DNA of 58,488 nt from an uncultured Selenomonadales bacterium (GTDB lineage Bacteria; Bacillota; Negativicutes; Selenomonadales; Selenomonadaceae). Positions 8,576 to 54,207 of the stretch are shown in pieces. The position numbers and the translations under genes are program-made. Location: assembly GCA_900314765.1 (NCBI GenBank), contig OMWN01000072.1, forward strand, positions 1-58,488. The letters run 5' to 3'. How positions within the stretch are numbered: the first letter of the stretch is position 1; every line of letters starts with the position of its first letter. The notes beneath the pieces were generated by a model. It made no database searches. It was given only the letters and a program-made list of their open reading frames with translations, and was not told the DNA's origin.

Positions 8576-8922
8576 ATGATTTTGTGCATATTCCCGAGAC
8601 GATGCCAGTTCGAAGTAACTTAGCGGTTTCCTATAGGCTCTTAAGGAAACACTGATTATCTCAGCAGTCGTCTTGACGGGTCTTTTTCCGTATATCTTCG
8701 TCGATGCTCATCCACGTAGCACCGCTACGTCTCTTCGCATCTCCTTGCTGTACGAAAAAATCCCTCGTCAATACTCCTACTTCAATTAATCAGTGTTTCC
8801 TCCAGCTGGCTCCGAAGCGGCGTGTCTTCGCTTTTGCCGCGAGGAAGCCAGTCTTAGAGCCTATCGAAATTGCGCAGTGAATGAGGGCTGGCATCGCCGA
8901 GTCACATTCCATATAGCAAAAT
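8576..8922 (+). repeat. Palindromic element A, copy 1, interrupted by element B
   Basis: Core ends are GATGCCAGTTC (8601) and GGGCTGGCATC (to 8895), which pair fully if G-T wobbles are allowed. The weaker outer arm starts with ATGATTTTGTG at 8576. A solo copy of the same family at 51781 lacks the 8643-8801 insert. It fills most of the gap between the thioesterase gene and the response regulator gene. Confidence 0.85.
8643..8801 (+). repeat. Palindromic element B, copy 1, nested in element A
   Basis: Terminal inverted repeats AAGGAAACACTGATTA and TTAATCAGTGTTTCCT bound a long imperfect hairpin. Inner arms are TTGACG/CGTCAA and an apical ACGTAGC/GCTACGT stem with loop ACC. It interrupts element A after its GGCTCT, at the same place as in the copy at 48890. 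Confidence 0.85.
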
Positions 8923-12020: not shown

Positions 12021-12051
12021 AATGCTACTGCTTCAATTAATCAGCGTTTAC
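12021..12051 (+). repeat. Fragment of element B (right end)
   Basis: CTGCTTCAATTAATCAGCG followed by TTTA matches the right terminal repeat of element B, with one or two differences. The rest of the element is absent. Confidence 0.6.
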
Positions 12052-12082
12052 TCAAGTAATGGAATGAATTTCATATAAAAGC

Positions 12083-12134
12083 AAAAGGCTGCAAAAGCGA
12101 ATGATACGGATTTCGCTTTTGCAGCCTTTTTATT
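12083..12134. terminator. Terminator after the gamma-carbonic anhydrase gene
   Basis: A near-perfect 18-19 bp stem (about 12083-12101 with 12112-12130) has a 10-nt loop and T/A tracts on both sides, so it may act on either strand. Confidence 0.85.
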
Positions 12135-12189: not shown

Positions 12190-12375
12190 GAATCCTATAG
12201 GAAATGTGACTCGGTGATGCCAGTCCTCATTCACTGCGCAATTAGGGCAGGCTCTAAGGCTGGCTTCCTCGCGGCAAAAGCGAAGACACGCCGCTTCGGA
12301 GCCAGCCAAAGATCCTATATGAAATTGCTAAGTTACTTTGGACTGGCATCACCTTGGGAATATTCACAAACTCAT
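12190..12375 (-). repeat. Palindromic element A, copy 2, uninterrupted
   Basis: Core ends are GATGCCAGTCC (12216) and GGACTGGCATC (to 12350), 135 bp, exactly as in the solo copy at 51806. The outer arm ends TATTCACAAACTCAT at 12375, and a second partial copy of that arm follows to 12391, abutting the ilvD stop. It is in the opposite orientation to the other copies. A short open frame through it (12166-12393) is not a gene. Confidence 0.85.
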
Positions 12376-14047: not shown

Positions 14048-14180
14048 GTTTTAGCCTCCAATTAAAATTTTAAATTTTATGATAAAAGATTATAATTAAT
14101 AACAATAAGAAATACGTAAATTTTTAAAGTAGAAATTCTGCCTGCCACTTCATCAATCCAACTTCATTGATGAAAACTGA

Positions 14181-14406
14181 ACCCTCTCCGCCTCGCATTC
14201 GCTCGGCACCTCCCCCATTGGGGAGGCTGGCATTACAGACTCTGAAATTATTTATTTTAGCTAAATCGGTTCTATCTTAATCAAAATCGTGCAACTTGTT
14301 TTGTCTGTAAAGCGAAGGTTGTCCTTCACTTTCAATTATACCGTGAAGCACTGCTTTCGCTATGCCTCCCACTCTGGGGGAGGTGCCCCGAAGGGGCGGA
14401 GAGGGT
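14181..14406 (+). repeat. Palindromic element C, copy 1
   Basis: The left end begins ACCCTCTCCGCC and runs to CCCCATTGGGGAGGC. The right end begins GCCTCCCACTCTGGGGGAGG and ends GGCGGAGAGGGT. The two ends form imperfect terminal inverted repeats of about 45 bp, each holding its own small hairpin, around an AT-rich middle. It occupies most of the 424-bp gap between ilvD and the next gene. No coding region is seen in that gap. Confidence 0.85.
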
Positions 14407-14471
14407 CTTTCACAAGCATATAAAAAATGAGCGGATATCATCCGCTCTATGAAACGAATTAATATCAAGCA

Positions 14472-33129: not shown

Positions 33130-33391
33130 ACCCTCTCCGCCTCGCATTCGCTCGGCACCTCCCCCATTGGGGAGGCTGGCGTTACAGATGCTGGGATTAT
33201 TTACTCTAGCAGAATATTTTGCTAATGAAACATAGTGCCTTTTGTTCTTATGTTTAGTTTTAAGTGTAAAACGTTGAATAATCGATTAATGAAAGTGTGC
33301 AGCTCTTTATTCGTTCGTCAAATTTTAGCGTAAAGACTCGCAAACTATGCCTCCCACTCTGGGGGAGGTGCCCCGCAGGGGCGGAGAGGGT
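33130..33391 (+). repeat. Palindromic element C, copy 2
   Basis: Same ends and orientation as copy 1 (ACCCTCTCCGCC left, GGCGGAGAGGGT right). The middle contains GAATAATCGATTAATGAAAG, which recurs inverted inside copy 3. It fills most of the 458-bp gap between deoC and glgA; a terminator follows at 33436 and nothing coding is seen. Confidence 0.85.
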
Positions 33392-33435
33392 CTTTGTGCC
33401 TTCATCTTCAACACTTCACAGCACAAACGCTATAC

Positions 33436-36858: not shown

Positions 36859-36899
36859 TGTCTACCTCCGCTGATTTATAGTTGAATGAGTTTGAAAAG

Positions 36900-37138
36900 A
36901 CCCTCTCCGCCCCTGCGGGGCACCTCCCCCAGAGTGGGAGGCAAAGTATGAGATACTTTGGCTAGAACTTAACAAAATAATAGAAAACGTTACACTTTCA
37001 TTAATCGATTATTCAACTAGAATAAATGTCTCACACTTTAATGTGCGAATCGATTCAGCTAAAGTAAATAATCTCAAAATCTGTGACGTAAGCCTCCCCA
37101 ATGGGGGAGGTGCCGAGCGAATGCGAGACGGAGAGGGT
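36900..37138 (-). repeat. Palindromic element C, copy 3, inside the glycogen operon
   Basis: Same ends as the other copies but inverted: starts ACCCTCTCCGCCCCTGCGGGG and ends GACGGAGAGGGT. The middle shares an inverted stretch with copy 2 (ATTAATCGATTATTCAA). It lies in the 446-bp gap between glgP and glgB; the rest of that gap holds the hairpin at 37216. Confidence 0.85.
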
Positions 37139-48822: not shown

Positions 48823-49175
48823 ATGAATTTGTGACTAATATCGAGGCGATGCCTGTCCGAAGTAATTTAGCAATTTCATATAGGCTCTCAAGGAAACACT
48901 GATTATTTCAGCAGTCGTCTTGACGGATCTTTTTCCGTATATCTTCGTCGATGCTCATCAGCGTAGTACCACTACGCTTCTTCTCATCTTCTTGATATAC
49001 GAAAAAATCTCTCGTCAATACTCCTACTTCAATTAATCAGCGTTTCCTTTGGCTAGCTCCGAAGCGGCGTGTCCTCTCTTTTGCCGCGAGGAAGCTGGCC
49101 TTAGAGCCTATCGAAATTGCGCAATGGATGAGGACAGGCATCGCCGAGTCAATTCCCCTATGTTTTCACAAGATC
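48823..49175 (+). repeat. Palindromic element A, copy 3, interrupted by element B
   Basis: Core ends are GATGCCTGTCC (48848) and GGACAGGCATC (to 49142). Compared with the other copies, one base pair of this stem is changed on both sides (A-T to T-A). The outer arm starts ATGAATTTGTG. It lies between the rubredoxin stop and mdh and fills that 434-bp gap; no gene is seen there. Confidence 0.85.
48890..49049 (+). repeat. Palindromic element B, copy 2, nested in element A
   Basis: Ends AAGGAAACACTGATTA and TTAATCAGCGTTTCCTT. Apical stem GCGTAGT/ACTACGC with loop ACC; copy 1 has ACGTAGC/GCTACGT, so two pairs differ on both sides at once. Confidence 0.85.
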
Positions 49176-51737: not shown

Positions 51738-51781
51738 AAAATAGGCACTGGCGAAATCAAAATGTCAGTGCCTATTTTTTA
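51738..51781. terminator. Bidirectional terminator
   Basis: A stem of about 11-12 bp (AATAGGCACTG with CAGTGCCTATT), T6 on the plus strand and T5 on the minus. It ends the CNNM gene and, beyond element A, the YnbB-like gene. Confidence 0.85.
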
Positions 51782-51976
51782 TGAGTTTGTGAATATCCTC
51801 GAGGTGATGCCAGTCCAAAGTAACTTAGCTATTTCCTATAGGCTCTTTGGCTGACTCCGAAGCGACGTGTTTTCGCTTTTGCCGCGAGGAAGCCAGCCTT
51901 AGAGCCTATCGAAATTGCGCAGTGAATGAGGACTGGCATCAACGAGTTTATTTTCCCCATGATTTTACAAACTCAT
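51781..51976 (+). repeat. Palindromic element A, copy 4, uninterrupted
   Basis: The best intact copy: outer arms ATGAGTTTGTGAATA and TTTTACAAACTCAT; core ends GATGCCAGTCC (51806) and GGACTGGCATC (to 51940), 135 bp. A middle hairpin pairs GGCTGACTCC with GGAAGCCAGCC. It lies between the YnbB-like stop codon and the shared terminator. Confidence 0.88.
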
Positions 51977-51984
51977 GCTTATTT

Positions 51985-54061: not shown

Positions 54062-54066
54062 TTCAT

Positions 54067-54207
54067 GAAGCAGTCGTCTTGACGGATCTTTTTCCGTATA
54101 TCTTCGTCGTGGTTCTAAGCATAGCACCACTACGCTTCTTCACATCTTCTCGATATACGAAAAAATCTCTCGTCAATACTCCTACTTCAATTAGTCAACG
54201 TTTCCTT
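54067..54207 (+). repeat. Palindromic element B, copy 3, left end missing
   Basis: Begins at GAAGCAGTCGTCTTGACGG, lacking the AAGGAAACACTGATTA arm, and ends TCAACGTTTCCTT. It is not inside an element A. Its truncated end abuts the 5' end of tRNA-Arg. Confidence 0.8.

Follow-up and report, generated by a model that had tools for sequence, protein, structure and literature searches.

In two nested repeats of an uncultured Selenomonadales genome, one strand of the fold is favored, i.e., the + strand in the repeat designated here as A and the - strand in the repeat designated as B, as judged from substitution counts evaluated with control columns. We think it rather probable that A and B are distinct MITE-like repeats, both non-coding, that B hopped into A, and that the cores of both have been kept as strand-specific folds, with a transcribed, folded RNA as the simplest reading. 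Folded repeats are widespread in bacteria, but it is seldom established whether selection acts on the fold or whether folding simply follows from the inverted repeats. Counting G-U versus A-C pairs by strand separates selection on an RNA or other single strand from copying between arms, and the same count gave opposite answers for the two nested elements studied here.

The window (i.e., the whole stretch of 58,488 nt analyzed) contains four copies of A and three copies of B, with A copies 1 and 3 each cut by B. The preliminary description of this DNA had placed its paired base changes at positions 48823-49175; this interval does hold one copy of A (147-nt core), A copy 3, interrupted by one copy of B (160 nt), B copy 2, and includes no open reading frame of 80 or more amino acids, but B copy 1 is located in A copy 1, approx. 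40 kb away. The stem strings quoted for A copies 1 and 3 and for B copies 1 and 2 are all present, and A copy 1 does stay paired by way of G-T wobbles. The features are located as follows:

8595-8641, + strand: left core part of A copy 1
8601-8611 and 8885-8895: end stem of A copy 1, GATGCCAGTTC and GGGCTGGCATC, with two G-T wobbles
8642-8801, + strand: B copy 1, within A copy 1
8714-8730, + strand: apical hairpin of B copy 1, ACGTAGC-ACC-GCTACGT (arms 8714-8720 and 8724-8730)
8802-8901, + strand: right core part of A copy 1
12210-12356, - strand: A copy 2, uncut core
48842-48888, + strand: left core part of A copy 3, its 147-nt core being split by B
48848-48858, + strand: left arm of the end stem of A copy 3, GATGCCTGTCC
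48889-49048, + strand: B copy 2, 160 nt, within A copy 3; RNA-like on the - strand
48961-48977, + strand: apical hairpin of B copy 2, GCGTAGT-ACC-ACTACGC (arms 48961-48967 and 48971-48977)
49049-49148, + strand: right core part of A copy 3
49132-49142, + strand: right arm of the end stem of A copy 3, GGACAGGCATC
51780-51793, + strand: TATGAGTTTGTGAA, a motif resembling a terminal repeat, on the left side of A copy 4
51800-51946, + strand: A copy 4, uncut core
51964-51977, - strand: inverted form of TATGAGTTTGTGAA, on the right side of A copy 4
54062-54206, + strand: B copy 3, with degraded left end

A right-end remnant of B was also observed at 12021-12056, between a gene and A copy 2, and a strong perfect hairpin followed by a T-run, resembling a terminator, adjoins A copy 2 at 12083-12130. 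A search of the window against Rfam at gathering score yielded two tRNAs only and no match to A or B; relaxed thresholds added weak unrelated matches only.

A covariance model, used to score 150 of 1375 first-look candidates, identified 52 uncut A cores in the own genome (147-183 bits). Below the score gap that follows these cores, one B-cut copy (106 bits) and one further copy (92 bits) were found, and the matches under 92 bits represented reverse-strand and B-cut matches. Cutting by B was observed in nine A copies (window copies 1 and 3, and the copies at loci L039, L040, L043, L044, L053, L055 and L068), of which two lie at contig ends. The own genome is a draft of 103 contigs, several of which terminate in these repeats (C83, C54, C32, C78, C97 and C34 stop within copies of A or B or in the adjoining flanks); as the assembly breaks at A and B repeats, all copy numbers are lower bounds. 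Our first A set consisted of the best 40 of 84 candidates, and the flank test reported below was redone on all 52 covariance-model cores with unchanged result. Searches of the other genomes of the family with blastn and with the covariance model (at stricter filters) found A in none of 188 genomes, and plasmid searches for A gave no match. Viral contigs contained no match to a 22-mer of A or a 26-mer of B; a degenerate version of the A 22-mer matched the genome contigs once, and the alignment of this match looks like chance.

B resembles a MITE and duplicates a 4-bp target of the YTAR type. It comprises 160 nt of non-coding DNA without a transposase gene, and at least 38 own-genome copies of at least 100 nt were found (40 of 107 candidates were scored in one search); relatives occur in 41 of 189 family genomes, representing 14 of 30 genera. 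The terminal inverted repeats (GGAAACACTGATTA / TAATCAGCGTTTCC) are conserved across these relatives, the ends being GGAAACRCTGATTA and its inverse. Identical flanking 4-mers were present at 27 of 56 copies, as compared to a mean of 9.7 and a maximum of 18 among shuffled sets, and the duplicated 4-mers were mostly TTAA, TTAG and CTAA. An element with B-type ends placed the length of an insertion sequence (IS) apart was established at none of the 30 (of 40) PF01609 matches examined in five genomes, and none was established among 20 relative loci, one of which (L155) has two B-type ends 2.26 kb apart. The orientation of B relative to genes was unbiased in the own genome (left, 12 vs. 11; right, 11 vs. 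10; 29 copies outside A, the rest unassigned). One B copy, at positions 350-510 of locus L065, differs from the usual 4-bp pattern in that a longer direct repeat, TTTACAGCTGATT, borders it on both sides. The pattern AGGAAACRCTGATTAA occurred in 34 stretches of viral contigs, which we took as mostly chance.

The stems of A are paired to a degree that slid or shuffled partners do not reproduce. Over 54 pairs and 42 copies, 96.3% of cells pair, as compared to 32-42% with slid partners; 13 pairs showed double-sided changes (4.9 +/- 1.4 in shuffled data, with 0 of 500 shuffles reaching 13), and 32 cells were changed on both sides (11.1 in shuffled data; 0 of 500). When changes were placed on a tree, 10 double changes from one Watson-Crick pair to another fell on the same branch (null mean 1.4, maximum 4). 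The A trees are weak, as the copies lie at nearly equal distances from one another (with a mean pairwise difference of 14.7, as compared to 18.2 for summed consensus distances), and event counts in A are thus close to counts against the consensus. Our own version of an R-scape-like G-test found none of the 54 pairs significant under two nulls in the 42 A copies, which probably reflects low power, given 230 substitutions. A lack of significant covariation had been named beforehand as an observation that would speak against selection on the fold; for A this lack is what the strict test returned, and it is not what the shuffle, slide and event tests returned.

Several individual pairs in A indicate how such changes arose. 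At pairs 53/96 and 54/95, most copies have T-A and G-C, two wobbles are present in one copy (L105), T-G is combined with A-T in window copy 3, and C-G with A-T in two copies (L311 and L294); this series is a stepwise chain through G-U pairs. The flipped end-stem pair reported for A copy 3 is present as T-A, but it is rare: among the 52 uncut copies, core pair 13/135 is A-T in 50, T-A in one and T-T in one, and the T-T copy is likely a surviving intermediate of the flip seen in copy 3.

B shows the same tendency over a much wider range of hosts. In the own genome, 12 same-branch Watson-Crick double changes were found in the B core (null mean 0.9, maximum 5). For the comparison across genera, we used an alignment of 74 rows, consisting of 62 of 71 relatives (nine poor or short ones were dropped by name) and 12 of the 38 own copies. 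In this alignment, 77.6% of cells pair, as compared to 65.7% in shuffled data (maximum 66.5) and 38-43% with slid partners, and 100 same-branch double changes were counted. The strict R-scape-like test found 2 of the 64 structure pairs significant and none outside the structure among all column pairs. Moreover, the internal-loop letters TGCGTC have a mean entropy of 0.62 beside stem letters at 1.48; conserved loop letters next to variable stems are as expected of a structured RNA. The apical stem of B had been described as differing by two compensated pairs between copies 1 and 2. While the strings are correct, the innermost pair does not fit this account, as C stands opposite A in 35 of the 38 own copies (C-G in two, T-A in one); copies 1 and 2 thus carry two different single repairs of a C/A mismatch. 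Read on the - strand, this C/A pair would be a G-U wobble.

These counts bear on the idea that A and B are plain MITE families, whose stems would be relics of descent from inverted repeats and whose paired changes would be inherited subfamily differences. Several observations would fit: both elements are small, non-coding and present in many copies, terminal repeats and a target duplication are found in B, and the strict covariation test on A was negative. The double-change counts, however, exceed both the shuffles and the tree nulls, the near equidistance of A copies and their flat linkage argue against a few inherited subfamilies, and the structure of B is kept over 14 genera despite much sequence change; we regard this idea as quite improbable.

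We used the kind of mispair left by single changes to separate folding of one strand from processes that treat both strands alike. Starting from a Watson-Crick pair, G-U results from C-to-T or A-to-G changes, and A-C from G-to-A or T-to-C changes; if no folded strand is favored, the numbers of G-U and A-C should be alike. On the + strand of A, 69 G-U and 25 A-C were found among the 52 copies over all 54 pairs, and 66 and 18, respectively, on the tree with five uncertain pairs dropped. Counted by pair, the excess was 19 vs. 4 (P = 0.003), and recurrent variant types also favored G-U (16 vs. 4; P = 0.012). Variants seen once showed no G-U excess (7 vs. 9), so that the bias in A stems from changes that recur. 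The unpaired columns of A had the opposite tendency (16 C>T plus A>G changes, 41 G>A plus T>C changes), which excludes a plain mutation bias as the cause. Conversely, in B the bias on the + strand was reversed across genera (60 G-U vs. 105 A-C over 64 pairs; 6 vs. 23 when the core was counted by pair, P = 0.002), with even counts in columns outside the element (141 vs. 155) and 86 vs. 37 in the unpaired core. The own genome alone showed the same trend for B, although weakly (20 vs. 32; P = 0.13). The opposite biases indicate that the folded strand is the + strand in A and the - strand in B.

These results also weigh on the proposal that stems stay paired by arm copying, i.e., template switching or gene conversion through the hairpin, with no need for selection on the fold. 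Such a mechanism has been described for RNA hairpins (PMC8794818, as far as the portion consulted goes), and in B, some of the double changes are transversions without a wobble path, as is also true of the flip to T-A in A copy 3. Neither bias is expected from arm copying or a cruciform, however, as these would treat both strands alike; moreover, all 10 traced double changes in A were transitions, able to pass through G-U, and wobble intermediates survive. As a general explanation arm copying is hence unlikely; of the two mechanisms offered in the preliminary description, the structure- and strand-dependent substitution bias supports, for both A and B, selection acting on a folded RNA or single strand, while copying through the hairpin is not needed for most A changes, given the transitions and the surviving stepwise series, but may still account for the transversional double changes in B and the flip in A copy 3.

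The core of A is conserved independently of its surroundings. Core identity to the consensus was 83-97% (median 93.2%; 53 rows, one of them B-cut), and flanks ranged from near consensus to near random. Among 52 rows, core identity was uncorrelated with flank identity (rho 0.11 and -0.07); the identities of the two flanks, by contrast, were correlated with each other (0.48; P = 3 x 10-4). Of the 147 core sites, 54 never changed, as compared to 5.8 expected, and in the outer internal loop AAG is invariant on the left side, as is ATGA on the right. Linkage between sites does not vary with distance (mean r2 about 0.03 throughout). We read the contrast between core and flanks as indicating that A copies are old and each still under constraint; homogenization between copies could also keep the core alike, and nine copies being cut by B implies that none of them has to be essential individually. 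Conserved letters surround the core even where the flanks have decayed (AT at -5/-4 before it, TCATTT after it), which suggests that the A unit carries its own start and end and points to a putative promoter-terminator unit.

We further assessed the genes around 55 A places (the 53 alignment rows plus window copies 1 and 3), as predicted by a simple gene caller that relies on codon scores and had been trained on the window. On the right, A is faced by a stop codon in 39 of 55 places and by a start in 16; on the left, a stop faces A in 16 and a start in 33, with six unassigned (P = 1.6 x 10-4; Fisher's exact test). The facing stop codon lies at a median distance of 43 nt from the right end of A. 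This position would suit a 3' element, i.e., a terminator or mRNA end protector of the gene facing the right end, but the mRNA would carry the - strand of A, while the tolerated wobbles are on the + strand, and such a role seems to us distinctly unlikely.

Between genes of the same direction, A is antisense in 26 cases and sense in eight (P = 0.003), and the GC skew of its flanks, read in the direction of A, is negative at 34 of 51 places. An orientation against genes and a skew fitting orientation by replication would be in line with a fold of one-strand single-stranded DNA, formed for transposition or in lagging-strand replication, rather than of RNA. Such DNA would give the same G-U/A-C bias, as G-T is milder than A-C in DNA as well. 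A role in transposition only, however, fails to explain a kept A core with decayed terminal-repeat-like flanks, and B has a 4-bp target duplication, which is typical of elements that move as double-stranded DNA. In addition, the own genome had no TnpB match (PF07282), while the same search was positive in six of 14 control genomes; we also rejected A as a TnpB guide RNA on these grounds. The profile for IscB/IsrB (PF14239) matched neither the own genome nor the control genomes. We give a single-stranded DNA fold a low probability, and we favor RNA as the folded strand in A and B.

If transcribed, A RNA would form one long stem of approx. 147 nt with two internal loops able to form tandem G-A pairs, which, as read from conserved letters, would be CC-GAA-G facing UGA-GG and CC-GAA-GC facing GC-GAG-G. 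The RNA would start near the left edge of the core and end in the U-rich stretch GAGUCAUUUU, and most copies are located approx. 40 nt past the stop codon of the facing gene. A mutation would hit one arm, changes leaving G-U would be tolerated, and these would later be completed to a new Watson-Crick pair, with selection presumably acting copy by copy; this course would account for the paired changes noted in the preliminary description. Beyond this, A may possibly represent an RNA-gene or cis-acting RNA family of approx. 52 copies, each under purifying selection after insertion and forming genome-wide RNA-producing units just past gene ends, with B as another structured RNA that is distributed across the family and spreads as a MITE; we put this forward only tentatively. 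If A copies are individually maintained, a mobile repeat would have turned into a dispersed RNA unit in one species.

Among known repeats, the available part of the description of QMITE2 of Coxiella burnetii (PMC5896051) indicates the closest anatomy to A: both have approx. 50 copies and a stable fold, QMITE2 being 150-190 bp in length. QMITE2 is located mostly in 3' regions and between genes, serves as target for another element, and yields an sRNA from one copy. By description, it has direct repeats of 7-11 nt, while A has a kept core and decaying terminal-repeat-like flanks, and the portion consulted includes no strand-resolved covariation, unlike the present data for A. The bcr repeats of the Bacillus cereus group are, according to the part seen of PMC3446304, intergenic families of which bcr1-bcr3 are MITE-like and bcr10 and bcr18 are predicted functional RNAs with conserved structure; they resemble A and B by description, in another host, and that part reports neither nesting nor a strand test. 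BOX, RUP and SPRITE of Streptococcus pneumoniae are described in the excerpt of PMC3049150 as short interspersed elements with MITE features, extensive folding and occasional nesting. SPRITE is terminator-like, while A is a long stem with internal loops, and both host and sequence differ. The duplicated 4-mers of B fit the YTAR rule that the consulted part of PMC10359306 reports for IS5. IS5-type elements are transposase-bearing, unlike B, and the searches made found no element with the ends of B. No paper was recognized as describing A or B from titles and abstract openings, a comparison by wording rather than by sequence, and thus weak evidence of absence.

The motif TATGAGTTTGTGAA and its inverse flank many A copies and are decayed in others; as judged by eye, there is no clear target-site duplication at A beyond AT. 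We considered whether the flanks represent a pre-existing target and rejected this, as the motif was found only at A copies and at one place beside a third repeat, C, with no empty target (144,650 nt in total, comprising own-genome loci and the window, partly overlapping; up to two mismatches). In the relative genome G027, five places of locus L158 have paired B-type ends within 5 kb, which suggests local clustering of B. Repeat C is present in the window at 14175-14435, 33130-33395 and 36867-37138, with the ends GACCCTCTCCGCCCC...GGGGGAGG, and 38 distinct C end sites were found in the own-genome loci examined. An end of C often adjoins the left flank of A, with a palindrome common to both (e.g., at L296, L265, L274, L083 and L096, among others).
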